Origin: Oscillospiraceae bacterium
Lineage (GTDB): Bacteria; Bacillota; Clostridia; Saccharofermentanales; Saccharofermentanaceae
Direction: 5' to 3'
Length of the DNA stretch: 64,000 bases
Assembly (NCBI GenBank): GCA_902764825.1
Contig: CACWXL010000002.1
Coordinates: 124,001 to 188,000 of the forward strand
Under the pieces are notes generated by a model, which was not told the DNA's origin, did no database searches, and saw only the letters and a list, made by a program, of their open reading frames with translations. A program made the position numbers and the translations under genes. Position 1 is the first letter of the stretch. Each line of letters begins with the position of its first letter. Positions 12,160-41,579 of the stretch are shown in pieces.

Positions 12160-12320
12160 TTTTTCAATGCTTTCGACGGAAATAGCAGGAATAATACTCT
12201 TCTCAATTCCGCAATGTCTTCAAGAAATCTTCGACGTCAAATCGCAGGAATAATGCTCTTCTCAATCCCGTAATGTCTTCAGGAACTCTCCGTACGGTAC
12301 ATCGCATGAATAATGAAGTG
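12160..12320. repeat. decayed tandem duplication of the licD 3' end
   Basis: The last ~60 bases of the licD gene at 12262 (encoding roughly HYSCDVPYGEFLKTLRD) are repeated downstream of its stop. A copy at 12185-12243 still spells a DFLKTLRN tail but has a one-base deletion (59-bp spacing), and a more eroded copy reaches about 12160. No selection for reading frame is seen outside the first copy. Confidence 0.75.
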
Positions 12321-13155
12321 TCGAGTGCATCGATTTTATCTGCATCGGGGTGCGCCAGTCTCCGAAATCCTGCTCGAGGCGCTTCTCGTAACCGGTCTGG
12401 CAAGGGATCATCCTGTCTTCGAAAGGCATGTCGACCGTGCCGTCAAACCATTCCCTGTTCCAGATATATCTCTTGTTGCCCGGGAAAACGGTAACATAGC
12501 CAAGACGCTTTGTTTCCGGGCCGACTTTCGTGGCGGTCTTGATGAATTTACGACAGATCTTGTCCGACGACGTGAATATGCCGCAGATCTTCCAGATGAC
12601 CTGTGCAAGCCTGCGCTTGGATGTTTTCCTGGCGCCGTACAAAGATAATGCTCTGTCTGTCTGATAGCACTCGAAAAGGAACTTCAGCCGCTTTAGTCTG
12701 CCTGACTGAATGGCAAAGGCGAGCTTGCCGTCGGGGACGTTATATGCCGGGAAGATGTCGACGAAGATGCCGCGGTTGCCGCCGGGATTGTTCTCGATCT
12801 CCCATTCGGTAAAGCATGCGGTGTCGCTTTTCCTGACCTTGAAAAGCCAGGGATAGAAGCCTTCTTCCGTCTCCCACGTCTGAAGAAAAAAAGGCGGCTT
12901 AAGTTCGTCTTTGGCGACCTTGCAGAACTTCTCAAGGTCGTCCCTGTACATCTGGACGTCGAGGTCGTCATCCCACGGAATAAAGCCCTTGTGCCTTATG
13001 GCGCCCAGGAGCGTGCCGCCGTCGGCATAATATGTAATGTCGTGCTTTTTGCAGATACGGTCGATCTCGTCCAGGATCTCCATCTGGACTGACCAGAGCT
13101 TTTTCATATCAGCCGATACTTTATAGCCGTCTCTAATCTCTTCTTCGAGGTTCAT
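12262..13155 (-). CDS. LicD family phosphotransferase (paralogue 1)
   Basis: 297 aa. Carries the LicD core ADGGTLLGAIRHKGFIPWDDDLDV near residues 45-68, including the paired Asp residues (DDDLD) expected to bind metal, and an FVDIFPAYNVPD segment near 150. LicD proteins transfer phosphocholine or other nucleotide-activated phospho-alcohols onto glycans. Closely similar to the next gene, so they look like a tandem duplication. An AAGGGGATC ribosome-binding site precedes the ATG. Its 3' end has been tandemly duplicated (see 12160-12320). Confidence 0.88.
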   Translation of the reverse strand: MNLEEEIRDGYKVSADMKKLWSVQMEILDEIDRICKKHDITYYADGGTLLGAIRHKGFIPWDDDLDVQMYRDDLEKFCKVAKDELKPPFFLQTWETEEGFYPWLFKVRKSDTACFTEWEIENNPGGNRGIFVDIFPAYNVPDGKLAFAIQSGRLKRLKFLFECYQTDRALSLYGARKTSKRRLAQVIWKICGIFTSSDKICRKFIKTATKVGPETKRLGYVTVFPGNKRYIWNREWFDGTVDMPFEDRMIPCQTGYEKRLEQDFGDWRTPMQIKSMHSTLHYSCDVPYGEFLKTLRD

Positions 13156-13167
13156 ATTCTGATCCCC

Positions 13168-14070
13168 TTATTTGGCCCGGGCCTTAAGATCCTTAATGTA
13201 ATCGTGGTAATCGGTATCCACAGAGAAATTAAGGCCTGAATGGAGCGACGTTCCCTTAACGAACTGATGCCAGTCGCCGAACTGTGATGTCAGCACTTCA
13301 TCGTACATATGGGGTCCCAATATGGTTATGTCCTCGAAAGGAAGCTCAACGGTCTTGTCGAACCAGGTCCTGTCCCAGACGAGCTTTTTGTTGCCGGGAT
13401 CAAATGAGATTACGCTGACACGCTTGGTCTTATTCTTTTCGAGTTTGCAGAGATCCATGTACTGCCTGCAAAGCTTTTCGGGGCTCGTGAAAATGGAATG
13501 GAGCTTCCACAAAAGCTGCTGCTTGGCCTTGAATTTTGTCTTCTTCACGCCGAATTTGGTGAGGGCGCGGTCTATCTGATAGTAGCCGTAGATCTTTCTG
13601 ATCTTCTTTAATTTCTTTACCTGCTTTGCGAAAACAGCATCGTCGTCAGGAACGTTATAGATCGGGAAGATATCGACAAAGATGCCTCTGTGACCTTCGG
13701 GACTCATCTCGAGCTCCCAGTCAGTGATGCATGTCGTGCCGCTCTTTCTTACCTTTAAGTGAAAAGGAGGATAGCCGGGTTCAGTCTCGCATGTCTGGAG
13801 GAAATATGGTTCCTTCAATTCGTCCTTGCAGTATTCGATGAATTTCTCATAGTCGTCGATATACATGTCGAGATCGAAATCATCGTCCCACGGAATGAAG
13901 CCCTGATGTCTTACGGCACCAAGGAGCGTACCGCCGTCGGCTATGACAGTCAGGCCGTGTCTTTTGCAGATCTGATCAATCTGATCATAGATATCCAGGA
14001 ATTCCGCCCAGAGTTTCTTCATGTCAGAAGAAATGAGATAGTCGCATCTTACCTCTTCGTTAAGGTTCAT
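13168..14070 (-). CDS. LicD family phosphotransferase (paralogue 2)
   Basis: 300 aa. Core ADGGTLLGAVRHQGFIPWDD near residues 44-63 followed by a DFDLDM metal site, then FVDIFPIYNVPDD near 150. Strongly alike paralogue 1 throughout. Its start overlaps the stop of the SDR gene by 4 bases, suggesting translational coupling. The transferred group is not visible from the sequence; the neighbouring cytidylyltransferase suggests a CDP-linked donor. Confidence 0.88.
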   Translation of the reverse strand: MNLNEEVRCDYLISSDMKKLWAEFLDIYDQIDQICKRHGLTVIADGGTLLGAVRHQGFIPWDDDFDLDMYIDDYEKFIEYCKDELKEPYFLQTCETEPGYPPFHLKVRKSGTTCITDWELEMSPEGHRGIFVDIFPIYNVPDDDAVFAKQVKKLKKIRKIYGYYQIDRALTKFGVKKTKFKAKQQLLWKLHSIFTSPEKLCRQYMDLCKLEKNKTKRVSVISFDPGNKKLVWDRTWFDKTVELPFEDITILGPHMYDEVLTSQFGDWHQFVKGTSLHSGLNFSVDTDYHDYIKDLKARAK

Positions 14071-15125
14071 AAGCCGTATGTCTCCTTTAAGATCTGAACG
14101 GTATGAGTAAAGCCTGCCTCAGCGTCAAAGCAGCCTCTCCAGCCAAGCCCTGTAAGGCTCGTGCTCTCGAGTGACGAATTGCTCATCGGGTTGAAGCCCT
14201 TGCGCTCTTCGTCAGTAGGCAGCTCCATTCTGAGCTTAACGCCTGCGCTCTTTACGAGGATCTCAGCCATCTGCTTTATGCTTATGATCGAATCGGGATT
14301 CGAGATATTATATGCGTGGCAGTTCTCGCCGCAGAGAAGGACTTTGAGCATTGCAGAAGCGCAGTCTAAGCAATAGCAGTAGCTTCTTATCTGAGCGCCG
14401 TCGCTCTTCATTACGATGTCTTCGCCCTTTGCAACTGCATAAGACCAGGCCGAAGCAACTCTGTTATCGTAAGGTGAAGCAGTCGGACCGTAGATGTGGC
14501 CGGGGCGTACGATAACTGACTCGACGCCGTATTCGTCGGCATATGAAGCGCATAATGTCTCTGCTGCCCTCTTGCCTACGGAATAGGAATTTCTCGCCTT
14601 CAGAAGATCGATGTAGCCGTACTGGCCTTCCTTGTAAGGCTCAGTGCCTTCCTTCTCGCCATAGACTTCGCTCGAGCTGATGTAAAGGATCCTCTTTGTT
14701 CCCTGCTCTTTCGCGTAATCTAAAAGATACTTCATTCCGAGGAAGTTGCTCATCATGGTCTCAACAGGCTCTTTTACGATCATGTTGGGTGATGCGTTGC
14801 TCGCGCCGTGGATGATGTAATCGGAGTGAACATCGATAACGTTATCGGTCTTTGATGCATCGTAAACGACGAAGGTGAAATCATCCCTGTTAACGAGATC
14901 GCCGAATCTGCCTGACATCTCTTCAGGCCATCTGCCTGCAGCAAGGACCTGTATCTTCTTGTCGTGAGTATCGTTGTAACGGAAGATGATGTCTACTACC
15001 GCAGAGCACACAAGGCCTGCAGCTCCGGTGATCATCAGTGACTTTCCGGCAAGTTCGTCGAGCTCCGGAACGACTTCGATGACCTTATCAATGTCTGCTA
15101 TCCAGTTCTTGTTATCGTAAAGCAT
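14067..15125 (-). CDS. NAD-dependent epimerase/dehydratase (extended SDR)
   Basis: 352 aa. A Rossmann motif near the N-terminus reads ITGAAGLVCSAV, where the third Gly of TGxxGxxG is replaced by Cys. The active-site region has SSSEVYGE and YSVGKRAAE, giving the Tyr and Lys of the YxxxK pair. A late VIVRPGHIYGP motif is typical of UDP-/dTDP-sugar epimerases and dehydratases. It sits between the IspD/TarI-like gene and two licD genes, so it probably makes or modifies the sugar or alditol part of the LicD donor. The specific reaction is not assignable. Confidence 0.8.
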   Translation of the reverse strand: MLYDNKNWIADIDKVIEVVPELDELAGKSLMITGAAGLVCSAVVDIIFRYNDTHDKKIQVLAAGRWPEEMSGRFGDLVNRDDFTFVVYDASKTDNVIDVHSDYIIHGASNASPNMIVKEPVETMMSNFLGMKYLLDYAKEQGTKRILYISSSEVYGEKEGTEPYKEGQYGYIDLLKARNSYSVGKRAAETLCASYADEYGVESVIVRPGHIYGPTASPYDNRVASAWSYAVAKGEDIVMKSDGAQIRSYCYCLDCASAMLKVLLCGENCHAYNISNPDSIISIKQMAEILVKSAGVKLRMELPTDEERKGFNPMSNSSLESTSLTGLGWRGCFDAEAGFTHTVQILKETYGL

Positions 15126-15134
15126 CTTGATCCC

Positions 15135-15848
15135 TCACTTAAGCCAGTCAGAACGCTTTGCAGCGAGCAAAGCCTTGAAGATATCGATATCTTCTACGGT
15201 CGTGAGCTTGATGTTCTTCTCGGAACCTGCAGAGAAATAGACCTGCTCGCCCATCTCGATCTTCAATGTGCAGGAAGCAACGGAATTCGTGATGCCTGCT
15301 TCCAAAGCTCTTCTGTGGAGATCACAGATATCACCGATGCGGAAAGCCTGCGGTGTCTGCGTTCTCTTCAGTCTGTCTCTGGGATAGCTTCCGACAGATA
15401 CGAGGCCGTCTTCGGTCTGCATCATTGCCTCCGCGCAAGGGATGACCGTGATCGCATTGCCGTACTGCTGGGCAACTCTGATGTTGTCTGAGATTATCTC
15501 GGCGCTGACCATCGGACGGATCGCGTCGTGAATGAGTACTAAGTCTGTGGGCTCGAAATGCTTTTCGAGCTCCATAACGCCGTTTCTTATTGAATCCTGG
15601 CCGTTCTTGCCGCCGGGTACCACATACTTGAGCTTTGTGATGTTGAACTGCTTGGCATATGCCCAGAGGACCTGGTCCCAGCCTTCGATGCAGACGACTG
15701 CGATGCAGTCGATCTCCGGGTGATTCTCGAAAGCCTCAAGTGTATAAACGATTACAGGCCTCTCGTTTACAGTGATGAACTGCTTCGGGATGTCCTGATG
15801 CATTCTGTTTCCGGAACCGCCGGCGATCAATAATGCTACGTTGCTCAT
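15135..15848 (-). CDS. IspD/TarI-type cytidylyltransferase
   Basis: 237 aa from the ATG behind CGGAGG. Signature N-terminus LLIAGGSGNRMHQDIPKQF (CTP-binding loop and PKQF), the VLIHDAIRP motif near residue 105, and RDRLKRTQTPQAF near 165. The family includes IspD (methylerythritol 4-phosphate) and TarI (ribitol 5-phosphate). The licD and SDR neighbours favour a TarI-like role in making a CDP-alditol for surface glycan; a housekeeping IspD role cannot be excluded. One base separates it from the upstream licD stop. Confidence 0.82.
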   Translation of the reverse strand: MSNVALLIAGGSGNRMHQDIPKQFITVNERPVIVYTLEAFENHPEIDCIAVVCIEGWDQVLWAYAKQFNITKLKYVVPGGKNGQDSIRNGVMELEKHFEPTDLVLIHDAIRPMVSAEIISDNIRVAQQYGNAITVIPCAEAMMQTEDGLVSVGSYPRDRLKRTQTPQAFRIGDICDLHRRALEAGITNSVASCTLKIEMGEQVYFSAGSEKNIKLTTVEDIDIFKALLAAKRSDWLK

Positions 15849-15849
15849 G

Positions 15850-16746
15850 TTATTCCTCCGTATTGATCCTGAACTCTGCGCAGCTGTGAATGACACGGTC
15901 CTTCTCAGGCGGGAGTCTCATATAGTCTTTATAAAGGTTCTTCAGATACGAATCGTAGTCTGAAGGTATCTTAAACATCTCACCATTAAATTCTACCTCA
16001 ATTAAGTCAGTAAAAAGAGACTTCTTAAAGACTTCGCGGTTATAGCTTATCGCCGACGGAACTGCGACGACGCCTGTCTCTTTCTTCGTGTGATCGAGCT
16101 TTGAGCAGATCTTAAGATAGAATCTCATGCCGAAGAAAACATTCAGAAGTCCGCCCATCCTGCGTCTTGAAGCATAGTATTTCCGGACTTCCTCGTCGGT
16201 CTTGCCCTTCTCGAGGATAATGGGTGACGGATATTTGTAGTCGCCGATAAAGCTCGACGCGTGGAATGCGAAGTCGTAGATCTTGCCGATGAATTTCCTC
16301 TTGGAAGCAGATGCGGGAACGTCTTCAATGATGAACACGTCGATAAAGACGCGTCTGTATTCGGCGGGGAGTCCGGCGTAGACCACTTCGGTAAACACGG
16401 AATTCTTAAGGAAGAGCTTCGGCTTCTTATTTGTATACTTGCCGTCCAAAGGTTCCACGAGATCGTATTTGTCAGTCATCTCGGAGAGCACGGCCTTCCT
16501 GAACTTCACGTACTCGGAGCGGAGCATCATGATGTCGAGATCGTCGTCCCACGGGATAAAGCCCTTGTGACGGACGGCGCCGAGCATCGAACCGCCTGAC
16601 AGAAGGAACGTGATGTCATGCTTTTCGCACACGCGCTTGATATCCATGAGCATGTCAAAAAGCGTCTTATGGAGAAGTTCTATCTGTGAATCCGAGAAAA
16701 CGAATTCACTGAAGACTTTGGAATATATATCTTTCTGCTTCTTCAT
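15850..16746 (-). CDS. LicD family phosphotransferase (paralogue 3)
   Basis: 298 aa from the ATG behind AAGGTGGGG; a longer reading would overlap the upstream GT2 gene. Core LSGGSMLGAVRHKGFIPWDD with DLDIMM metal site near residues 48-75, and VFIDVFIIEDVPA near 150. It is more diverged from the other two than they are from each other. Operon order is GT2, licD3, cytidylyltransferase, SDR, licD2, licD1. Confidence 0.86.
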   Translation of the reverse strand: MKKQKDIYSKVFSEFVFSDSQIELLHKTLFDMLMDIKRVCEKHDITFLLSGGSMLGAVRHKGFIPWDDDLDIMMLRSEYVKFRKAVLSEMTDKYDLVEPLDGKYTNKKPKLFLKNSVFTEVVYAGLPAEYRRVFIDVFIIEDVPASASKRKFIGKIYDFAFHASSFIGDYKYPSPIILEKGKTDEEVRKYYASRRRMGGLLNVFFGMRFYLKICSKLDHTKKETGVVAVPSAISYNREVFKKSLFTDLIEVEFNGEMFKIPSDYDSYLKNLYKDYMRLPPEKDRVIHSCAEFRINTEE

Positions 16747-16756
16747 CTTCCCCACC

Positions 16757-17575
16757 TTATGATTTGCGCAAAAGCGTCTTATATAAGAACTTGCGGAGCC
16801 AGTTAGGCGCAAGAGCACCGGCATATCTCATGTTCATGCGCTTGAAGTACTGCCATTTTGTTATAAAGCCCGTATCTCTCATGTACTTGAAAAGAGCCTT
16901 CACGGATTCCGCATACTTCTTGCCGCCCCTGCGCTTATACATATCAGCGCCGGCGCGCATCCAAAGGAGTGACTCCTTGATGTTATATCCTCTGAATCCG
17001 TGCTGGAGAACACGTACCCAGAGGTAATAGTCTTCGATATGAGAAGGGATATATCCACCTGATTCGATAATCGCAGTCTTCTTGTACATGATGCAGGGAT
17101 GGTTGAAAGGACATCTCTTCTTGCAGTATTCATATACGTCTTCCGGCTCCTGCGGCATCTCGCGCCTGGATTCTATGACGTCCTTATTCTCAATGAATTC
17201 TTCGATTGTGCCGGATACAAGATCCACGTCGTCTCTTGATTCAAAGATCTTAAGCTGCCTCTCGCATCTGTCAGGATAAGAGATATCGTCAGAATCCATT
17301 CTGGCGACCAGTTCGTTCTTACAGAGCTTTATGCCGATATTGAGAGCATTTGCAAGGCCGCCGTTCTTTTCGAGCCTTACGACATGGAGCACATCAGGAT
17401 GAGCCTTAACATTCTCATCGATGACCTTGTCCAATTCTTCATTTAAGGGACCGTCGCAGATAAGCACAAAATCATTTGTCTGCACCGTCTGATTCCAGAT
17501 ACTGTCCAAAGCCTCACGGAGAAATTCTGCTTTTTCCTTGTGATAAACACTCATCAGAACAGAATAATTATCCAT
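16757..17575 (-). CDS. GT2 family glycosyltransferase
   Basis: 272 aa. GT-A fold with SVLMSVYHKE at the N-terminus, SIWNQTVQ near 27 and RMDSDDIS (DxD-type metal site) near 92-99. No membrane helices. First gene of the licD operon; an AGAGGG ribosome-binding site precedes the ATG. Likely adds a sugar to the glycan that the LicD proteins decorate. Confidence 0.85.
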   Translation of the reverse strand: MDNYSVLMSVYHKEKAEFLREALDSIWNQTVQTNDFVLICDGPLNEELDKVIDENVKAHPDVLHVVRLEKNGGLANALNIGIKLCKNELVARMDSDDISYPDRCERQLKIFESRDDVDLVSGTIEEFIENKDVIESRREMPQEPEDVYEYCKKRCPFNHPCIMYKKTAIIESGGYIPSHIEDYYLWVRVLQHGFRGYNIKESLLWMRAGADMYKRRGGKKYAESVKALFKYMRDTGFITKWQYFKRMNMRYAGALAPNWLRKFLYKTLLRKS

Positions 17576-20763: not shown

Positions 20764-22191
20764 TTATTTGCAGTCTGCGTCGTGCATTTCTTTCGCACGC
20801 TCGCTGTCAAAGCCCTCAGTGCTTTCCTTCTGGAACAAGATCTTGATGGTCTCGAAAATGATCTGGAAATCAAGTAAAACGCTGTAGTTAGCGATATATG
20901 TGAGGTCGAGCTTCAGCTTATCGAGAGCTGAAGTGTTGTACTTGCCGTAAACCTGCGCATAACCTGTAAGACCGCCCTTGACCTTCTCTCTGAACTTGAA
21001 TTCGGGGATATCCTGGGTGTACTTGATAACGTGCTCGTAACGCTCAGGCCTCGGTCCGACGATACTCATATCACCTGCAAAGATATTGAAGAGCTGGGGA
21101 AGCTCGTCTACTCTGCATGCACGGATGATATTGCCGACCTTAGTGATCCTGTCGTCCTTCTCGCCTGCCGGATGCGGACGTCCGTCCTTCTCTGCATCAA
21201 CGATCATGGAACGGAACTTCAGGATCATGAAGTGCTTGCCGTCCTTGGTTACACGTTCCTGCTTGAAGAACACGGGACCATGGTCTTCGATCTTGATGGC
21301 AAGAGCCGTGATGAGGAAGATCGGACTGAATACGATAAGCGCAAGTCCTGAAAGAATGATATCCATTGTTCTCTTCGCAAATCTCTGACCGAAGCTCATA
21401 CCGAAGTTACGGCTTAAATACAAAGGCGTATCGATAACGTTGATACTGTCAGAACACTTGAGGATGATATCTGCGATCTTCGGAACAACATAAGTCCTGA
21501 CATCCTTATCAAAGCACAGCTTAATGATCTTATTCTCGATCTGTGAAGGAACGTCGTTGATAAGAACGCTGGAGCTGCCGTTAATTACGGCTTCGAGATC
21601 AACACCGGGATCGTCAAACTTGACCCTGTTTACGACCTGATACTTATGAGGAAGGCATGCAAGCTTATCTTCGATATTATTCGGGTGATAGCCGTAGATA
21701 AGCGTGATATTCAAAGGCGGAATGATCTTCCTGTATATGAAGTTCATGATTATGACCAATACACCCAGAACTATGGACTGTCCTAAAGCAAGGAGCAGAT
21801 ATCTCCAGGCAAACTGAGGCATATATCTGAAGTTATTCTGGATCGTGGCAGATACCAGGATCTCTGCAACTGCGGTGGTAAAAAGGCATAAAGCAACACT
21901 TACCGTCTGCTTCGCGATCCTCTCAACGCCGATCGAGAAAGCCCTGAAAAACCTGCCGAATATGATGAACATCAGGATGTAGATGATCGCTGACATCGCA
22001 ATGTTGCCCTTGCCGAGCAAACGATCAGTATTATTGTTCTGATTGATTACGTAATCCAGCCATACCAGCATGAAGCTCAATGTGGAAAGTGCCGTAAGAA
22101 GCACCGCGCAGATGCCGCGGTATATATATCTTGAGCCCTGACTCTTAGTCTTGGCTTTCTTAGCAGAAACGCTGTTATTATCTTTACTCAT
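20764..22191 (-). CDS. polyprenyl-phosphate sugar-1-phosphate transferase (WcaJ/PglC-like)
   Basis: 475 aa from the ATG behind GGAG. Five hydrophobic helices in the first 160 residues, a cytoplasmic linker, then the C-terminal bacterial sugar transferase domain: a reentrant helix, KRTMDIILSGLAL, FKQERVTKDGKHF and ILKFRSM, then RVDELPQLFNIFAGDMSIVGPRPE cut across residues about 360-385. These enzymes start glycan assembly on undecaprenyl phosphate. It follows the PEP mutase gene but is separated from it by a strong terminator. Confidence 0.88.
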   Translation of the reverse strand: MSKDNNSVSAKKAKTKSQGSRYIYRGICAVLLTALSTLSFMLVWLDYVINQNNNTDRLLGKGNIAMSAIIYILMFIIFGRFFRAFSIGVERIAKQTVSVALCLFTTAVAEILVSATIQNNFRYMPQFAWRYLLLALGQSIVLGVLVIIMNFIYRKIIPPLNITLIYGYHPNNIEDKLACLPHKYQVVNRVKFDDPGVDLEAVINGSSSVLINDVPSQIENKIIKLCFDKDVRTYVVPKIADIILKCSDSINVIDTPLYLSRNFGMSFGQRFAKRTMDIILSGLALIVFSPIFLITALAIKIEDHGPVFFKQERVTKDGKHFMILKFRSMIVDAEKDGRPHPAGEKDDRITKVGNIIRACRVDELPQLFNIFAGDMSIVGPRPERYEHVIKYTQDIPEFKFREKVKGGLTGYAQVYGKYNTSALDKLKLDLTYIANYSVLLDFQIIFETIKILFQKESTEGFDSERAKEMHDADCK

Positions 22192-22251
22192 CAGTTCTCC
22201 ATAAAATAAACACAAATATCAACGCTATTATACACTAAATCTTTTTAATCA

Positions 22252-22312: not shown

Positions 22313-23608
22313 TCAGATCTCGTCGATCAGAGTGATGATCTCCTTGATGGACATAAGTCTGTCATCGACTTCCTTAGCTCTGTGATACTTAAGGATATCC
22401 TCAGCTGTCTTCTGCATTGCAGGGAATGCCGATCTTGTAAGCTGGTTAGCATAAATAACGATATTAACGCCGTGAGCAGCGAGCTCTTCTTCCGTGATCG
22501 TATTGAAGGAAGAAGGAACGACAACGATAGGTGTTGTCTTATCGAATGCTCTGAACTTGTCGCAGAATTCAAGGATCTCAGCAGGATCCTTCTTGCGGCT
22601 GTGGATCATGATCCCGTCAGCGCCAGCCTCAACGAATGCCTTGGCTCTTGCAAGAGCGTCTTCCATACCCTGCTCTAAGATAAGGCTCTCGATACGTGCG
22701 ATGATCATGAAATCATCTGTGAGCTGGGCTCTCTTGCCTGCAGCGATCTTGGCACTCATCTCTTCGATGGTAGCCTGTGTCTGCTTGACTTCAGTACCGA
22801 ACAGAGAGTTCTTCTTTAAGCCCTTCTTATCTTCGATGATGACTGCGGAAACGCCCATTCTCTCGAGTGAACGGACTGTATATACGAAGTGCTCTGTAAG
22901 TCCGCCGGTATCTCCGTCGAAGATGATCGGCTTTGTCGTTACTTCCATGATATCGTCGATCGTTCTGAATCTTGATGTCATGTCAACGAGTTCGATATCA
23001 GGCTTGCCCTTTGCCGTGGAATCACAAAGAGATGAGATCCACATTGCATCGAACTGCTCGAGCTTACCTTCATGCTCTACAACGGTCTTCTCAACGATAA
23101 GACCGGTAAGACCGCTGTGAGCCTCCATCGTCTTAACGATAGGCGTCATCTTGATAAGCTGTCTTAAGCGCTTGCGGCGGTATTCAGGCATTGCGAGCTT
23201 TTCACGAAGCTGCATGTCGATCTTCTTTACCTTCTCGTTATATGTGTAAGGAACGTCGATCAGTTCACCGCCGTATTCCTTGAGGAGTTCTTCAACATGA
23301 TCGCGGATGGCGCTCTCGGGGCCGTTCTTCCAGTTATCGCCGTGGATGACATAGTCAGGCTTTATGGAAGCAATAACGTCGTTATACATGAAATCATTCT
23401 GGATGACGACCTCATCAACACCATCAAGCTCCTTATAGAGCTTTATCCTCTCTTCAAGAGAGAGCGTCGGGAATCTGTTGTATTTGATGAGAGCCTCATC
23501 AGTAAGAGCGCCTACGACAACGCGGCCGTGCTCTTTTGCCTTCTCGATGATGTTCAGATGTCCTTCATGGATAACATCGGTGCAGAAACAGGTATAAACA
23601 GTCTTCAT
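22313..23608 (-). CDS. pepM: phosphoenolpyruvate mutase with N-terminal cytidylyltransferase domain
   Basis: 431 aa. Residues 1-130 are a cytidylyltransferase-like domain with HEGH (H14-H17) and YVIHGDNW near 86-93. Residues about 155-431 are PEP mutase: DGDTGG near 231, the diagnostic EDKKGLKKNS (259-268, matching EDKxxxKxNS) and ARIESLI near 304. The mutase turns phosphoenolpyruvate into phosphonopyruvate, forming the C-P bond; it is the entry step of nearly all phosphonate biosynthesis. Fusion to a cytidylyltransferase is known in the family, but the usual ISSTxI-type motif after VPYT is missing here (reads YNEKVKKI). AAGGAG precedes the ATG; the phnW gene is 3 bases upstream. Confidence 0.93.
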   Translation of the reverse strand: MKTVYTCFCTDVIHEGHLNIIEKAKEHGRVVVGALTDEALIKYNRFPTLSLEERIKLYKELDGVDEVVIQNDFMYNDVIASIKPDYVIHGDNWKNGPESAIRDHVEELLKEYGGELIDVPYTYNEKVKKIDMQLREKLAMPEYRRKRLRQLIKMTPIVKTMEAHSGLTGLIVEKTVVEHEGKLEQFDAMWISSLCDSTAKGKPDIELVDMTSRFRTIDDIMEVTTKPIIFDGDTGGLTEHFVYTVRSLERMGVSAVIIEDKKGLKKNSLFGTEVKQTQATIEEMSAKIAAGKRAQLTDDFMIIARIESLILEQGMEDALARAKAFVEAGADGIMIHSRKKDPAEILEFCDKFRAFDKTTPIVVVPSSFNTITEEELAAHGVNIVIYANQLTRSAFPAMQKTAEDILKYHRAKEVDDRLMSIKEIITLIDEI

Positions 23609-23611
23609 GAT

Positions 23612-24751
23612 TCAATTCTCCTTATACTTAACAGGGATCTGAATATTATTCGTTCTCAAGGCTTCCTCGAAGACTTCGAAAAAGTCATTTATGTCCTTTA
23701 CGTCGATAGCACCCAGAGCGCAGAGTCTGAATGTGTTCGTGGAAGAGATCTTGCCGGGATAGATCGTAAAGCCTCTCTCATAGCAGTAATCGTGTACCTT
23801 CTCAAAGCTCCAGTTCGGATCATCGGGATAGACCGCGGTACTTACAAGACCTGCACGGTCTTCAGGCTTGATGACCTGCTTAAAGCCGAGCTTATCAAGA
23901 CCTTCGTTGATGGCATTGAATACTCTGGTGTGGCGTGCCCACTTGCCTTCCTCACCTTCAGCCCAGTATTCCTTAATACCCTGGAGTGCTGCATAGATAG
24001 TCTGGACCGGAGGCGTAAAGTGCATCTCGCCGGTCTTTTCGAAGCAGTCGTACTGAAGGAAGAGATTGCAGTAATAGCTTCTCTTGGGATAATCCTTGGA
24101 CTTCTCGATGATGGCTCTGTTGCCTACAACAAAGGAAAGACCCGTCATGGCCATAAGACCCTTCTGGGCAGAAGCCATGCAGAAGTCGATATTGTCTTCT
24201 TCGATGTTGATCGGGCGCATCGCATATGTGCTTGTCGTATCAACAGTAAGGATAGCGCCGTATTTATGAGCAAGAGCACCGATCTCCCTGATGGGATTTA
24301 AGATGCCCGTGCCAGTCTCGTTATGAGTCGTATGTACGAGCTTAATGGAAGGATCGTTCTTCAGTGTCTCTTCGACGAGGGCCAGATCAGGCTTCTGATC
24401 TACCGGGAACTTAAGATCGATATGGGGAAGCCCGTAGTATTCGCAGATCTCAACTGCTCTGGTGCTGTAAGCGCCGTTATTAACTACAAGGACTTTGCCG
24501 CCTTCGGGAAGCAGAGAATTGATGCAGACATCGATATTTATCGTGCCTGAACCGCAGAAAAGTACGGATGTGTATTTCTCAAGATCACCGTGAACGATCC
24601 TTACGAGATCTTCACGAAGTCCCTTCATAAGTGATGCGAATTCCTTCTCTCTCGGACAGATATCCGGAACTACCTGTGCCATCTTAACCGTATCAGTCGT
24701 TGTGGACGGACCGGGATTCAAGAGAACATTTCTTTTAACGATAGGATCCAT
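23612..24751 (-). CDS. phnW: PhnW-type 2-aminoethylphosphonate:pyruvate aminotransferase
   Basis: 379 aa from the ATG with GGAGG eight bases upstream. Class V PLP transaminase with PhnW landmarks: LNPGPSTTTDTVKMAQVVPD (11-30), ICPREKEF, CGSGTINID near 66, MASAQKGL with Lys197 as the Schiff-base residue, FTPPVQTIYA and GFTIYPGK. In biosynthesis it would aminate phosphonoacetaldehyde to 2-aminoethylphosphonate. The active-site context SAQKGLMAM differs slightly from the usual SSNK..QG pattern, so another phosphono-oxoacid is possible. Only 3 bases from pepM, hence same operon. Confidence 0.88.
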   Translation of the reverse strand: MDPIVKRNVLLNPGPSTTTDTVKMAQVVPDICPREKEFASLMKGLREDLVRIVHGDLEKYTSVLFCGSGTINIDVCINSLLPEGGKVLVVNNGAYSTRAVEICEYYGLPHIDLKFPVDQKPDLALVEETLKNDPSIKLVHTTHNETGTGILNPIREIGALAHKYGAILTVDTTSTYAMRPINIEEDNIDFCMASAQKGLMAMTGLSFVVGNRAIIEKSKDYPKRSYYCNLFLQYDCFEKTGEMHFTPPVQTIYAALQGIKEYWAEGEEGKWARHTRVFNAINEGLDKLGFKQVIKPEDRAGLVSTAVYPDDPNWSFEKVHDYCYERGFTIYPGKISSTNTFRLCALGAIDVKDINDFFEVFEEALRTNNIQIPVKYKEN

Positions 24752-24793
24752 TAAAACGCCTCCTGCGTTCATTTTACGAGTAAATCGAACTCA

Positions 24794-24888: not shown

Positions 24889-25785
24889 TCAGACGTCGTA
24901 ACTCTTATCTATGGCCTTCAATTCCTTGAAAGAATCGATCTCCACGATGTCCTCGTCGAAGCATTCCTTGACAGCAACTTTATAGTTTTCCTTGCGGTAA
25001 ACAAGGGGAACCTGCTCCCAGTATCTCTCGCGTCCGCCGGGTGTCTGGAACACGTCATCGATATCCTGTGAGAGCTTGTGGCCGTCTGCTTCATTCCAAT
25101 AAGAGATGCCGACCATCTGCCAGCAGTCAAGACCTCCCACCTTCTCTTCGACGATGATGCCGTCCTTAACGGTAAAGCACCAGTCATCCGTACGGTCCTT
25201 CTTTATCGCGAGGAAGTCAGAAGAATAGTGATATTTCTTGATTATCTCCGGATTGCTGCAGACAAGGTCAGCTTCCAGTACATATGCATTCGAGAGCAGA
25301 TATCTTGCGACAAGGGCGCTCGAAATGTTATTTGCGTCGTTATAGGAAGGGTTCTCAAGGAACTTGATCATCGGATACTTATAAAGGAGCTGGTCGAACT
25401 GCTCAGCGAGATATCCTCTTACGATATAGATCTCTTCGATCCCTGCAGCAAGGCATGCGTCTATCAGAGTATCGATGATCCTCTTTCCGTTGACTCTTAC
25501 GAGCGGCTTGGGAGTGTTCAATGTGATCGGAACCATTCTCGAACCGAAGCCTGCAGCGATAAAGACTGCTCTCTTAGCCCTGTAAGGCTCTAACGCCTCA
25601 ATGCCCTTATCAGTGATCTTGCTCTTCTCTATATAGCCCAGATCTGTAAGTTCTTTTATAGCCTTATTGACGGTTCCGAGAGAATAGCCTGTGTGCTTTT
25701 CGAGATCACGCTGCGAGAAAGTCTTATCTGCAGTAGCCAAAGCTTCCAGGATATCGAATTGCTTTCTGGTAAGTTCAGTAGTCAT
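24889..25785 (-). CDS. winged-HTH fused to LicC/PntC-like nucleotidyltransferase
   Basis: 298 aa. Residues about 1-65 form a MarR-like winged helix (TRKQFDILEALATADKTF, then SLGTVNKAIKELTDLGYIEK cut across 32-55). Residues 70-298 form a sugar-nucleotidyltransferase fold with FIAAGFGSRMVPITLNTPKP (77-96) and VLEADLVC (metal Asp) near 178. LicC makes CDP-choline and PntC makes CMP-2-aminoethylphosphonate, and both share this fold. With pepM and phnW next door a PntC-like role is likely. The HTH could bind DNA and regulate the operon or be a structural remnant. The start follows the upstream stop with no gap. Confidence 0.85.
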   Translation of the reverse strand: MTTELTRKQFDILEALATADKTFSQRDLEKHTGYSLGTVNKAIKELTDLGYIEKSKITDKGIEALEPYRAKRAVFIAAGFGSRMVPITLNTPKPLVRVNGKRIIDTLIDACLAAGIEEIYIVRGYLAEQFDQLLYKYPMIKFLENPSYNDANNISSALVARYLLSNAYVLEADLVCSNPEIIKKYHYSSDFLAIKKDRTDDWCFTVKDGIIVEEKVGGLDCWQMVGISYWNEADGHKLSQDIDDVFQTPGGRERYWEQVPLVYRKENYKVAVKECFDEDIVEIDSFKELKAIDKSYDV

Positions 25786-28083
25786 TTATGCCTCCAATTC
25801 TGAATTGCCCAGGATCTTATGATACAGGGAATCTATCGTATCCCTGTCCAGAGCGATCGGATGATTCTTCAGTCTATCAACATTTACGGATGATGCAAGC
25901 AACATATACTCTGCTTCATTCGCAGATGGTGTAGACATGTTAAGCCTCTTATATAGTTCATCAAGATAGGTGCATACCAGTTTGGGGTCGGGGAATCCGA
26001 ATGCCTCAGCGATATTATCCATTACCGAAGCAAGATATTCCTTTCCTCTCGGATCTATGCACTTATCAAGGTTCTCAAGCATCCACGGGAACAAAGCTCT
26101 TACGCAAAGCATTGCAGCATGCCCGTGAGCAAGACCGTATAAAGACGTGAGCTTATAGCACATGGCATGTCCTGCTGTCGTCTGTGAGATGTTAATGGCT
26201 TTTCCTGCCTTATATGCGGCATTCATCATTTCGAGATTGGCAACTTTATCATTGGCAAGATAACCGTCGAGATTATCCAGTATGAGATGGATCGCCTCGC
26301 TTGCATAAGCCTTGCTCTCATCAGTACTGTTGACTGACCAGAGGGATTCAATAGAATGGCAGAGCGCATCGAACATTGTGCATTTACGCTGATACAAAGG
26401 CAGCGTCTTAAGAAGGCTGCTGTCCATAAGGACAGTCTTAGGGATTATGCTCTCATGATTTACGGACTGCTTGGCACCGTTATAGTAGATAACGGCAAAT
26501 CTCGTTGCCTCAGAACCTGTTCCTGCCGTTGTCGGAGCTGCAAGGAACGGAATGTCATTTGCTTTGATCTCCTGCTTAAGGAAGTTCTTATCAGGATCCA
26601 TATTAGAGAACAGCTTAATGCACTTGGCTACGTCAATCGCAGATCCGCCGCCTATAGCAATGATCGCCTGGCATTTCTCGCGGTTAAAGACGCTTACACC
26701 TTCTACGACCGAATCATATAAAGGATTAGGCGTGAAATCGCTGAAGATGACTATCCTGACACCTAGTCTTGATTCAACAGTGTCCAGATACCTCTTAATC
26801 GGCATGCCATTGATGGAAGGCCCGCAAACGAGAAGAATTGCTTTCGCGCCCGTTGAAACGATCCATTTATCAAGCTTCTCGTAATTATTCTCAGCCGTGA
26901 TGATGCCTTCGACGGATCTCCACACGTTCAGTTCAAGATCGCGGTTCTCCTGATCGGTTATCTCACCGCTGAAGGTATTCTCGATCGACTTATATTTGGC
27001 ATCAGCTGAATAAGGGAACTCAACAAGCTTTCCGCCATATTCTGCAAGGAGCTTGATGACCTCCTCCCTTATCGGCTTCTGATAACCCGTGACCCAGTTA
27101 TCGCCGTGAACGACGATATCAGGCTTATATTTACGGATATTGTCCGCATAAGACAATGTATCCTGATCTACAACCCTGTAAACGCCTGCAATAGATGCAA
27201 CGAGGGCTTTACGCTCGGATCTCGGAACGATCGGCGCATACTTATAGCTTGCGACCACTTCGTCTGAAAGGACGCCGACAGTAAGCTTACCGAGTTTTGC
27301 AGCTTTCTTTATGATGGAGATATGTCCGCCGTGAATAACGTTCGTGGACAAGGACATATAAACCGATCTGTTCTCCACTTCCTTAAGTTTTGCAGATACA
27401 GCTGCAAGATCTTCAGGATTGTCGATCTCAGAGCAAAGCCTGTCCTTAACGTCAAACGCAGCGATATTGCACGCGCCGTCAAGTTCATTAAGAGCATTCT
27501 CGGCATAGCACTTGCGGTTGCCGTTCTCACAGAATTCGATTATCTTATCAAGCCAGAGCTTCCAGTCCTCACACTTAAGCTTATAAAGGGCCTGGGCTTC
27601 CATAGCATCGTCGAAGAAGTTGATTCCCACCTTCTGAACGAATCCGTCCTTGATAACAGCCTTAAAGTCCTTCTCAGGCAAAGGTATGGTCGATGATACC
27701 TTCATGCAGCTCGTAGGACATGCGATTATGTCTTCCAATACCGAGCACTCGAAAACAAGGTCTCCGTGCATCAGCACGATATCGTCATCAAGGTATTCCC
27801 TCGCGCAATAGATGCTGTAGATATAATTAGTCTCAGCATAAAGAGGGTTATTGACAAAAGTGAAGTTCAAAGGAAGGCCCAGCGAATGGCAGTAATCGAC
27901 CAGAATTGAATCAAAATACCCTGTCGTCATAACGACATCGGTTATCCCGCAGCTCTCAAGGAGCCTTAACTGCCTGGAAAGAATAGTCTCGGTGGCAGAT
28001 ACTTCCGTCATGCACTTTGGGTGTTCTGACGTAAGAACGCCCATTCTGTGGCCCAAGCCGGAATTAAGAATTAATGCCTTCAC
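25786..28083 (-). CDS. three-domain fusion: nucleotidyltransferase, cytidylyltransferase, iron alcohol dehydrogenase
   Basis: 765 aa, GTG start behind GAGG. Residues 1-235: sugar-nucleotidyltransferase fold with LNSGLGHRMG, HPKCM and MHGDLV. Residues 238-372: cytidylyltransferase-like domain with HGGH (251-254) and IVVHGDNW, clearly related to the N-terminal domain of the nearby PEP mutase. Residues about 385-765: group III iron alcohol dehydrogenase with AIGGGSAIDVAK (476-487), PTTAGTGSEAT and metal-ligand DALCHS and GLAHGHAA motifs. Phosphonoacetaldehyde reductases (PhpC/FomC type) belong to this dehydrogenase family. It may both make 2-hydroxyethylphosphonate and activate it. First phosphonate gene of the operon. 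Confidence 0.87.
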   Translation of the reverse strand: MKALILNSGLGHRMGVLTSEHPKCMTEVSATETILSRQLRLLESCGITDVVMTTGYFDSILVDYCHSLGLPLNFTFVNNPLYAETNYIYSIYCAREYLDDDIVLMHGDLVFECSVLEDIIACPTSCMKVSSTIPLPEKDFKAVIKDGFVQKVGINFFDDAMEAQALYKLKCEDWKLWLDKIIEFCENGNRKCYAENALNELDGACNIAAFDVKDRLCSEIDNPEDLAAVSAKLKEVENRSVYMSLSTNVIHGGHISIIKKAAKLGKLTVGVLSDEVVASYKYAPIVPRSERKALVASIAGVYRVVDQDTLSYADNIRKYKPDIVVHGDNWVTGYQKPIREEVIKLLAEYGGKLVEFPYSADAKYKSIENTFSGEITDQENRDLELNVWRSVEGIITAENNYEKLDKWIVSTGAKAILLVCGPSINGMPIKRYLDTVESRLGVRIVIFSDFTPNPLYDSVVEGVSVFNREKCQAIIAIGGGSAIDVAKCIKLFSNMDPDKNFLKQEIKANDIPFLAAPTTAGTGSEATRFAVIYYNGAKQSVNHESIIPKTVLMDSSLLKTLPLYQRKCTMFDALCHSIESLWSVNSTDESKAYASEAIHLILDNLDGYLANDKVANLEMMNAAYKAGKAINISQTTAGHAMCYKLTSLYGLAHGHAAMLCVRALFPWMLENLDKCIDPRGKEYLASVMDNIAEAFGFPDPKLVCTYLDELYKRLNMSTPSANEAEYMLLASSVNVDRLKNHPIALDRDTIDSLYHKILGNSELEA

Positions 28084-28193: not shown

Positions 28194-30557
28194 TTATTCC
28201 TTGAACTTGACCCTGATGTAATTCAGGACACAGGACTTACCGGATTTATTTGTAACCTTGAACTCACAATCATTAAGCGTCTCGGTTACCGTAAACTCAT
28301 ATTCAATCCTGTTATCAGTATACGTGACTGCCTTACCCTCTACAGGCTTCATTTCTCCGTCCTGTTTATAGGTAACGCCAAATTCCGTCCCTTCAAGGCC
28401 GGTTCCTTCAATTTCCATAATATAAGTGCCGGGAACCAGGGTCATGTATGGTCCGAAGGAGACGCTGTCAGCATCAAGTTCACGCGTTCCTTTATTGTCA
28501 GATGCGCCGGATACAAACTGGGAACTGAAGAAGTCACTGTGATAAACGTATTTCTTGGTTATCAGTAAACTGTCAATATGGCAGTAAGAAGAACCGTTGT
28601 TATGTGCGGTTATCTTCAATGTCTTCGTTTGCTCACCGAGTTTGAACTTCAAGACCACATGATCACCGCTTCTTGATACGACAGTACCGGAGATCTCCTG
28701 AGGTCTGTTCCAAGTAGTCTTTTTATAATCCTTTACGATCACGGGATTATACTCAACACCAAAATCAGCCTGATCAAGATCTGATCCTTGTACCGTCACA
28801 TAGTACCAATCCGGATAAAGCTCAACATTTCTGGTCTTATATTCCTTACCGGGAGCGATAGTATAATTGTCGGAAATAGTAATATTTCCTATCAGGCCGT
28901 AGAGTTCATCGTAACTGCTGAACCCGTAAACATAGTACCTCTTTACGAGTTTTTCACTGTCAAAGACATCCCAGTTCACTTCTTCAGGTGTCTCATAGAT
29001 AATGTGCTGGTCAGGAACATACTTTATCAGTCTGCTGTCCCTTCTTTGAGCTTCAGATAATACCCAGAATACTTTTCCTTCGGGATGCTCACAGACATGG
29101 GATTTTTTCTGAAGCCATTCAAATGTGCGGTCGTTGTTTTCGCCTTCATTTAATTCATCGCTGCTTATCCAGACATCAAGATATCCGTTTGAAAGTTCGG
29201 TTAAGACATTGCCGTTCCAGAAAGTGGCATAGCCGTCCCTGTAACCGTTCTCTGTGAGGAATACTGCGATCTTCTTAAGCTCAGCAAGGTCATCCCTCTC
29301 GGATAGAGTCTTATACCTGAATGCACCGGTAATCAACATCAATCCGCAAAACATGATCACGGGTAAATATCTTAAATTGATCTTGTTCCTGATCTCTTCA
29401 AACAAAAAGAAAATACAAGGGAGAGTCATCCATATAAGGACAAGGCTGTGCCGGTCTTTGAAGATGATATCCGAAAAGATGAAAACAAGAACATATACCA
29501 GATATGAAGCAAGTGTCAGCAATGAGAATCTGAAATACAGATCTTTCTTTTTTCTCTTTAATCCCACGATAAGTGAGACAACGAAAAGCGCAAACCATAC
29601 AAAGCAGACGATGTTATGAACGAGATTTTCGGAAAAGACCTTACCTTCCGTATATCCGAAATTCCGGAAATAAAACGCTATAACATCTTTTAACCTGTTA
29701 ATGTTGAACGATTTGAAATTGATATCATAGCTAAAGTAATCATAGTAAAGATGCAGTACGGTCGAGTTGATAATAAACCCGGCAAGGCCAAAGACAAAGG
29801 CCAGAACAGAACACAATAAAGGTGATGAGCCTGCTGCTATTGAATCTTTAACACATTTTCCGATACTCTTTTCACCATTCTTATATTTTTCGACACTGTC
29901 CAAAACAAGAAGAATAACAGCCGTAACAAGAACAGGAAGATAAACGATAAGTATCTGCCTCGGCCCCCCCAGGCCTGACAGAAAAGCCAATACACAAAGG
30001 ACTGTAAGAAGGATGAAGGATAAAAGCTTCTTCCCTTTTAGATTCATTAAACTCTCAAGTATTGCAACCGTCAGGATCGATATCACGATGTGAGGATAGT
30101 AATATGCGCCCTTTAGCACGATCTCGAAATAATGAACTGAGGTCGGAATGAGCAACATTGCAAGTCCCAACCAGGCATATTTCTTCAGTTTGAAAACTCT
30201 GAAAAGCCAATATGCGGATACGAGCATCGTTAAGGTCAGCAGTATATCGGATACGATTCTGATCTTATGCCAGTTATTGAAGAACTTAAAAAAGAAAGCA
30301 TAAACGATCTGCGTATTAAAGACTCTGAGTTCTGTCGAATAGAACCAGTTCGGTGTAATGAGGCGGTTCTCTTCTGCGAGCATTTTGGAAAGGATTAACT
30401 CACTCGTATCATCAGAATTTAAAAACCTCTCCATATTAACGTTCAGAAACCAGAACAGGAAACAAAAGCAAAGGCAGAACAGGATAAATGATGCGACCGT
30501 AAAGATCCTGTCGTTTCTGTCATGGCTTTCGATAATGTTAGAGGGCTTCAAAAACAT
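28194..30557 (-). CDS. large GT-C-like membrane protein with C-terminal soluble domains
   Basis: 787 aa. About 10-11 hydrophobic helices in residues 18-430. The first extracytoplasmic loop holds LNSDDTSELI, an acidic DD pair as in many GT-C glycosyltransferases that use polyprenyl-phosphate sugars. Residues about 430-787 are soluble, probably outside the cell, with two similar beta-rich blocks (each ending in a GTYIMEIEG- or WYYVTVQG-like strand), reminiscent of carbohydrate-binding folds. Specific function unknown. It lies between the phosphohexomutase gene and the phosphonate genes, with a weak ribosome-binding site. Confidence 0.65.
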   Translation of the reverse strand: MFLKPSNIIESHDRNDRIFTVASFILFCLCFCFLFWFLNVNMERFLNSDDTSELILSKMLAEENRLITPNWFYSTELRVFNTQIVYAFFFKFFNNWHKIRIVSDILLTLTMLVSAYWLFRVFKLKKYAWLGLAMLLIPTSVHYFEIVLKGAYYYPHIVISILTVAILESLMNLKGKKLLSFILLTVLCVLAFLSGLGGPRQILIVYLPVLVTAVILLVLDSVEKYKNGEKSIGKCVKDSIAAGSSPLLCSVLAFVFGLAGFIINSTVLHLYYDYFSYDINFKSFNINRLKDVIAFYFRNFGYTEGKVFSENLVHNIVCFVWFALFVVSLIVGLKRKKKDLYFRFSLLTLASYLVYVLVFIFSDIIFKDRHSLVLIWMTLPCIFFLFEEIRNKINLRYLPVIMFCGLMLITGAFRYKTLSERDDLAELKKIAVFLTENGYRDGYATFWNGNVLTELSNGYLDVWISSDELNEGENNDRTFEWLQKKSHVCEHPEGKVFWVLSEAQRRDSRLIKYVPDQHIIYETPEEVNWDVFDSEKLVKRYYVYGFSSYDELYGLIGNITISDNYTIAPGKEYKTRNVELYPDWYYVTVQGSDLDQADFGVEYNPVIVKDYKKTTWNRPQEISGTVVSRSGDHVVLKFKLGEQTKTLKITAHNNGSSYCHIDSLLITKKYVYHSDFFSSQFVSGASDNKGTRELDADSVSFGPYMTLVPGTYIMEIEGTGLEGTEFGVTYKQDGEMKPVEGKAVTYTDNRIEYEFTVTETLNDCEFKVTNKSGKSCVLNYIRVKFKE

Positions 30558-40580: not shown

Positions 40581-41579
40581 TCAGATCTCAAAAGAAGACT
40601 TATCAGGCAGAATGCTTTCAAATGCATCTTTCAAGTCTTTCTGAGCCTTGCTTATGTCATCCCCTGAAAACTCATCGTTAATACAGAGGATACTCTTTTT
40701 CTGATTCTTTATCGTGCTTATGAGGAATGAATTATCCCCGTCTGTGACAGGAATGAATGTCCTCTTGTTTTGCGAAGTGGGAACGAAATTCCCGCTCACA
40801 AGTCTCCAGTATCTTATAAGCCAGTGGCTTATGTTTTCCTTATTTCTGAATTTGCTGTGAACAGTTGCATTCATAAGTTCAGGATAAAGGTTCCACATGT
40901 CGTCGAATTCTTTTTTCAAATATGCGACAGGCGTGTGATAGTCACGAAAACCCGTGAACTTATTCCATGGCTTAGTAAGTTCCAATGTTCTTATAACTGA
41001 CTTGATATCCTTCATGTTATACCACTGAGAACGGTTCTTCTTTAAGACTTCACGTTTACTGAAGTTCTCATTGATCACCCTCACGTTATTTGCAAGGATA
41101 TAACCGAAATCCTCAGAAAATTCTATTGCATCCAAAGCAGCAAAATCACAGGGCTTTCCGGCCTTGAAAAAATCCGTCTCTTTTACTTCATCAAGAATGA
41201 AGAAGTCATCGTTAAACAGAATGAACCTGTCAGATAAGCCTTCGATCTTATTGATGCCAAGCTCAATTGCATTAGAATTAAATGTGGGAAGCGCATCTTC
41301 CGGCATATAGTCTTTATGGTCAACAAGCTTAAGTTTAGGATGATCCGGATTAAGCCACTCCAGCCTCTGGCCGCAAGTAACGAAATAGACCTTATTTACC
41401 CAGGGAGCAAACTTTTCGACACCTCTGAACCAGTAGCGCATAAGATCCCAGTCGCGGTATCTCCGGGCTCCGGCATTATCCTCTGATGTCTTGATGCCGA
41501 GATATTCATTTCTGGTCTTCTGCCATTCCGGATCGTTACCGTCGACCCATGTAACTATGAAATCAATCTTATCGCTCAT
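40581..41579 (-). CDS. Stealth-family sugar-phosphate transferase
   Basis: 332 aa. Shows conserved region 1 (IDFIVTWVDGNDPEW, 6-20), region 2 (YRDWDLMRYWFRGVEKFAPW across 41-60 and ALPTFNSNAIE with FILFNDDFF near 125) and region 3 (FRDYHTPVAYLKKEF near 212). Stealth proteins transfer hexose-1-phosphate to hydroxyls, as in GlcNAc-1-phosphate capsule polymerases. This gives a second way, besides LicD, of adding phosphodiester bonds to the surface polymer. Overlaps the next upstream gene by 4 bases. Confidence 0.9.
   Translation of the reverse strand: MSDKIDFIVTWVDGNDPEWQKTRNEYLGIKTSEDNAGARRYRDWDLMRYWFRGVEKFAPWVNKVYFVTCGQRLEWLNPDHPKLKLVDHKDYMPEDALPTFNSNAIELGINKIEGLSDRFILFNDDFFILDEVKETDFFKAGKPCDFAALDAIEFSEDFGYILANNVRVINENFSKREVLKKNRSQWYNMKDIKSVIRTLELTKPWNKFTGFRDYHTPVAYLKKEFDDMWNLYPELMNATVHSKFRNKENISHWLIRYWRLVSGNFVPTSQNKRTFIPVTDGDNSFLISTIKNQKKSILCINDEFSGDDISKAQKDLKDAFESILPDKSSFEI

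Follow-up and report, generated by a model that had tools for sequence, protein, structure and literature searches.

A three-domain fusion protein predicted to produce and activate hydroxyethylphosphonate in an exopolysaccharide operon of a rumen bacterium

Bacterial phosphonate capacity is thought to serve mostly cell-surface tailoring, and the steps that follow PEP mutase are poorly known (PMC6697681). In a 64,000-nucleotide stretch of a rumen Oscillospiraceae genome (hereafter the window), one open reading frame joins two nucleotidyltransferase folds to an iron alcohol dehydrogenase (Fe-ADH), raising the question of whether it is a genuine single protein and, if so, which reactions it performs.

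The original prediction of one 765-residue protein with two nucleotide-transfer folds and a dehydrogenase was borne out by the reading frame, which starts with GTG and has GAGG upstream of the start, and by a Pfam search, which returned NTP_transf_3 (NTP3; residues 3-121), CTP_transf_like (248-342) and both halves of the dehydrogenase, Fe-ADH (394-554) and ADH_Fe_C (569-757), every one over its curated cut-off. No PEP mutase domain (PF13714) is present and the Fe-ADH stands in its stead, so the protein is not the triple fusion described previously (PMC6697681). An AlphaFold2 model, computed from an alignment with 77 relatives, displays folded domains with a mean pLDDT of 87.9, and the motifs at all three active sites are kept among the 77 relatives. 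Since metagenome assemblies make up most of the genomes and there are unfused versions too (L028, L050), separate genes wrongly merged by sequencing or assembly could be suspected. Such a join is nevertheless excluded for all practical purposes, because a survey across genomes found the same three-domain frame in 16 others, at 58-91% identity to the window protein, one of which carries no MAG label (L011, Ruminococcaceae YRB3002), and because the linkers are clade-specific.

Table 1. Features of the fusion gene and of its operon (window coordinates)
Feature	Position	Strand	Evidence
Fusion gene, 765 aa: LicC-like NTP transferase, Fom1-like cytidylyltransferase and iron alcohol dehydrogenase	25786..28083	(-)	ORF, Pfam, 16 same-architecture relatives
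Domain 1, residues 1-235: NTP_transf_3/LicC-like; GLGxR...PK motif, D108/D221 metal ligands, His106	27379..28083	(-)	Pfam, alignment; residue roles from PMC6697681
Domain 2, residues 236-365: CTP_transf_like cytidylyltransferase (CyT), HGGH motif	26989..27378	(-)	Pfam PF01467, PDB 5x3d match
Linker between CyT and Fe-ADH, residues 372-391: low confidence, disordered	26911..26970	(-)	AlphaFold2; length varies among fused clades
Domain 3, residues 392-758: iron alcohol dehydrogenase, GGGS, metal ligands D572, H576, H639, H653	25810..26910	(-)	Pfam PF00465/PF25137, alignment
wHTH (MarR-like) and LicC/PntC-like nucleotidyltransferase, Glu/Glu amine pocket, predicted AEP cytidylyltransferase; begins at the fusion's end	24889..25785	(-)	Pfam, alignment
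PhnW/AepZ 2-aminoethylphosphonate (AEP) aminotransferase	23612..24772	(-)	TIGR03301, 454.7 bits (cut-off 360.8)
CyT-PEP mutase, Fom1-like layout, EDKKGLKKNS motif	22313..23608	(-)	TIGR02320, 409 bits (cut-off 319.6)
Undecaprenyl-phosphate sugar phosphotransferase, directly after CyT-PEP mutase	20764..22215	(-)	PF02397, TIGR03025
LicD-family protein, candidate CMP-phosphonate transferase	15850..16824	(-)	PF04991
Two more LicD-family genes (12262-13155 and 13168-14070)	12262..14070	(-)	PF04991

The best PDB match of the central CyT domain (1.4e-38) is 5x3d, the hydroxyethylphosphonate (HEP)-specific CyTase of Fom1, with which it shares 62 of 124 residues (50%), as compared to 48 of 124 for the CyT fused to PEP mutase in the same operon. 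The histidines of the HxGH motif (H251 and H254) are invariant in all 48 aligned rows. By its fold, this motif and its nearest match, the domain fits the Fom1 CyTase type, and formation of CMP-HEP is predicted.

The N-terminal domain finds its best PDB match in LicC, a CTP:phosphocholine cytidylyltransferase (1JYK). Residues G9, G11, R13, P22, K23, D108 and D221 are present in 92/92 aligned NTP3 domains; relative to the PntC motif GXG(T/S)RX4-8PK, the window domain has His at the T/S position before the Arg and a spacing of 8 before PK. The amine of AEP is faced by two glutamates in Treponema PntC, Glu104 and Glu196, both of which correspond to Asp in LicC (PMC6697681). By alignment, the fused pocket contains His106 and Glu195, whereas the wHTH-PntC of the operon has Glu at both positions; Glu104 was matched to His106 through the Treponema row, LicC being shifted by one residue in that block, and Glu195 was placed through the LicC row, since the available Treponema domain comprises its first 116 residues only. 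The acidic residue at the Glu104 position is absent from the fused NTP3 domains, His106 occurring in 92 of 92, while Glu occupies this position in nine of ten PntC homologues. Such a putative non-amine pocket favours activation of HEP over that of AEP.

In the Fe-ADH domain, the metal ligands D572, H639 and H653 are invariant and H576 is found in 40 of 46 sequences, with Gln in the other six. The assignment to the phosphonoacetaldehyde reductase family made in the original prediction did not hold at the level of family models: the NCBIfam model for phosphonate Fe-ADHs, TIGR03405 (PsrA), gives 141 bits against a cut-off of 423.7, the fusion is not a member, and its substrate is consequently deduced from context instead of a family match. 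The nearest fold is 6jko, a sulfoacetaldehyde reductase, which acts on the sulfonate counterpart of phosphonoacetaldehyde; many other Fe-ADHs score nearly equal. With Fe-ADH substrates being highly varied, and no model above cut-off to fix this one, the domain could have a different pathway aldehyde or ketone as its substrate (e.g. converting phosphonopyruvate into phosphonolactate), or a fermentation aldehyde from outside the pathway. This we regard as unlikely, given that its unfused orthologue is in most loci a neighbour of PEP mutase and phosphonopyruvate decarboxylase and that identity between the fused domain and the remaining Fe-ADHs of the same genome does not exceed 31%.

We then compared 80 related loci, of which 61 encode NTP3-CyT-PEP mutase, 16 (besides the window) NTP3-CyT-FeADH and three (L028, L050 and L083) an unfused NTP3-CyT without PEP mutase. 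In 53 of the 61 triple-fusion loci the next gene encodes an Fe-ADH with full-length homology to the fused domain, whereas a few (L040, L142) have no adjoining Fe-ADH and count against the pattern; phosphonopyruvate decarboxylase is present in 48 of the 61, mostly without PhnW. Three genes, for NTP3-CyT-PEP mutase, Fe-ADH and decarboxylase, are thus predicted to cover every step between PEP and CMP-HEP. One locus, L072, where a PhnW-like gene and not an Fe-ADH comes after the triple fusion, was considered as a counter-example and discarded: the contig breaks off shortly beyond, and in L038, whose gene order is comparable, the Fe-ADH is found further along. In the 19 other genomes with a form lacking PEP mutase, a PEP mutase is encoded elsewhere in 19/19 and the decarboxylase in 18/19; this PEP mutase has two domains and a length of about 435 aa (in one genome its gene is divided between contigs), and adjoins PhnW in most of the window clade as well as in G007-G010 and G014-G016. 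The simplest reading is that the PEP mutase domain was dropped where another copy provides phosphonopyruvate, and that the neighbouring Fe-ADH gene would have been joined to the former triple fusion in its place.

Apparent four-domain fusions in G160, G402 and G459 and an apparent NTP3-FeADH fusion in G151 were rejected as neighbouring separate genes, their open-frame lengths reading through stops. A plasmid search returned only generic Fe-ADHs and a Segatella copri protein annotated as PEP mutase, which matches residues 1-397 at 64% identity. Two relatives have, close to their phosphonate genes, NTP_transf_3 fused to a class I/II PLP enzyme, in an FrbH-like layout (L005:8020-9894, L126:531-2333).

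The operon around the fusion is devoted to exopolysaccharide synthesis, with the sugar phosphotransferase, GDP-mannose/fucose genes and a Wzy-like protein; phosphomannomutase, mannose isomerase, mannose-1-phosphate guanylyltransferase-like and GDP-mannose dehydratase genes lie upstream of the fusion, and the three LicD genes 9-13 kb downstream. The candidate transferase among the latter has an 85% identical copy in L128, near NTP3-LicD-FeADH-PEP mutase genes. The CyT-PEP mutase of the operon is the sole PEP mutase of the genome, and the single phosphonopyruvate decarboxylase above threshold is located on another contig (G000:C5:170038-171114), none being found in the window. No phosphonatase scored above cut-off in the genome, and a degradative role of the phosphonate genes was rejected on this ground. 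Several other features of the window were noted: the gene that follows the fusion joins a winged-helix domain of the DNA-binding type to a metabolic enzyme; the three LicD genes, an epimerase gene and one for an IspD-like cytidylyltransferase (12262-16824) possibly make up a second CDP-activated side-group pathway; a 787-aa membrane-like protein encoded upstream of the fusion (28194-30557) has no Pfam or NCBIfam match, with homologues only in the close relatives L008-L010; and the exopolysaccharide operon encodes a Stealth-family protein of the sugar-phosphate transferase type (40581-41579).

Four lines together favour phosphonoacetaldehyde reduction and subsequent CMP activation: homology to the Fom1 CyTase, the unfused Fe-ADH as a neighbour of the triple fusion, joint occurrence with PEP mutase and decarboxylase, and the putative non-amine pocket. 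We consider it likely that the fusion is a phosphonoacetaldehyde reductase and HEP cytidylyltransferase that yields CMP-HEP, as the HEP branch of a two-branch phosphonate tailoring pathway. Reduction of an aldehyde and activation of the resulting alcohol by one polypeptide, as originally proposed, is therefore supported as a prediction; of the suggested CDP/CMP-hydroxyethylphosphonate synthase, CMP-HEP is retained as the predicted product and the CDP compound is not. In this pathway, PEP mutase would form phosphonopyruvate, which the unlinked decarboxylase would convert into phosphonoacetaldehyde. Part of this pool would be turned into AEP by PhnW and then into CMP-AEP by wHTH-PntC; the remainder would be reduced with NAD(P)H to HEP by the Fe-ADH domain of the fusion, whose nucleotidyltransferase part would convert HEP and CTP into CMP-HEP and pyrophosphate. 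LicD-type transferases may finally attach HEP to the exopolysaccharide that the genes around the fusion produce. The fusion thus probably adds an HEP branch beside the AEP branch (PhnW, PntC) in the exopolysaccharide operon of this rumen bacterium. CMP-HEP is also the substrate of Fom3 in fosfomycin biosynthesis (PMC8158854) and could feed a secreted, fosfomycin-like small molecule instead of a surface glycan; the exopolysaccharide operon with its three LicD genes, and the lack of a Fom3-like gene among the annotated ORFs, make this quite improbable.

Note that two nucleotidyltransferase domains are redundant for one substrate, which counts against the HEP reading as formulated. HEP may be made while only one of the two domains acts on it, the other serving AEP, a sugar or alditol phosphate, or a structural role. 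Both active sites are kept complete; stand-alone NTP3 proteins, 81% identical to the fused domain, lie beside an Fe-ADH with no CyT attached in L127 (7340-9196) and L128 (8015-10767, with a LicD gene in between); and the CyT is still joined to PEP mutase, as the 435-aa forms, in relatives without a match to the fusion. Nothing, however, points to a separate substrate for the second domain, and NTP3 carries His in place of the amine-contacting Glu of the AEP enzyme. We give this division of labour a substantial chance, somewhat short of even; it can be seen as a refinement of the HEP reading, with which it is compatible.

We finally examined how widely the fusion is distributed. Of 188 genomes in the window's order, 45 match the protein at 1e-80, and 17, all from one family and spread over two of its genera, contain the full fusion (truncated at the 5' end in one); in a class-wide sample of 391 genomes, the full fusion occurs in two only, both of the window genus. 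Three Lachnospiraceae loci (L015-L017), from a differently named family, also carry it. PEP mutase is found in 42 of the 45 matching genomes vs 50 of the other 143 in the order (p = 1e-12, indicative only, since genomes of one order are related and the test overstates their independence). A single origin of the fusion is rejected on the Fe-ADH tree (p-AU 0.001, or 0.006 without the long-branch row L017) and is not rejected on the NTP3-CyT tree (p-AU 0.145), which makes repeated fusion likely rather than proven. More tentatively, and with the odds rather against the whole combination, the His106-type LicC-like domain may represent an uncharacterised HEP-specific cytidylyltransferase family, the phosphonoacetaldehyde pool being split between AEP and HEP to decorate the surface, and the fusion of reductase and activating enzyme having arisen more than once because the alcohol formed from the aldehyde is channelled by it.

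Together with its unfused three-gene counterpart, the fusion predicts CMP-HEP as an activated metabolite in rumen and gut Clostridia, and is a single protein in which this prediction is directly testable. The His/Glu contrast between the neighbouring nucleotidyltransferases offers a concrete candidate marker of specificity.

Reduction of phosphonoacetaldehyde to HEP by Fe-ADHs and cytidylylation of HEP by Fom1 are known or proposed steps (PMC8976061, PMC8158854); it is their joining into a single protein that appears undescribed. A full-text literature search found no paper on this phosphonate dehydrogenase-cytidylyltransferase fusion, in line with the original statement that no described example was known, although a prior mention cannot be fully excluded and that statement overlooked the closest relatives, the published NTP3-CyT-PEP mutase triple fusions, of which 42 cases were reported (Rice et al, 2019; PMC6697681). 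Their first two domains are homologous to those of the window protein and in equal order, with NTP3 domains about 69-78% identical, but PEP mutase occupies the place of the Fe-ADH, which is normally the next gene. Fom1 of Streptomyces wedmorensis (CyTase-PEP mutase, fosfomycin) shares the CyT domain and performs the HEP cytidylylation predicted for the fusion; its CyT is joined to PEP mutase, without NTP3 or dehydrogenase, the fosfomycin route otherwise using the separate Fom2 and FomC. Reductases of the AlpJ/PhpC/FomC type resemble the window Fe-ADH as iron alcohol dehydrogenases with a predicted conversion of phosphonoacetaldehyde to HEP, but are stand-alone enzymes from actinomycete antibiotic clusters. 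LicC has the fold and motif of domain 1, with D105 at the position of Treponema Glu104 (Rice et al; PMC6697681) where the fusion has His. Tde1415, the PntC-AEPT of Treponema denticola (6PD1/6PD2), likewise unites a phosphonate-forming enzyme and a CMP-activating domain in one polypeptide, with an aminotransferase, AEP and Glu104 where the window fusion has a dehydrogenase, predicted HEP and His106.
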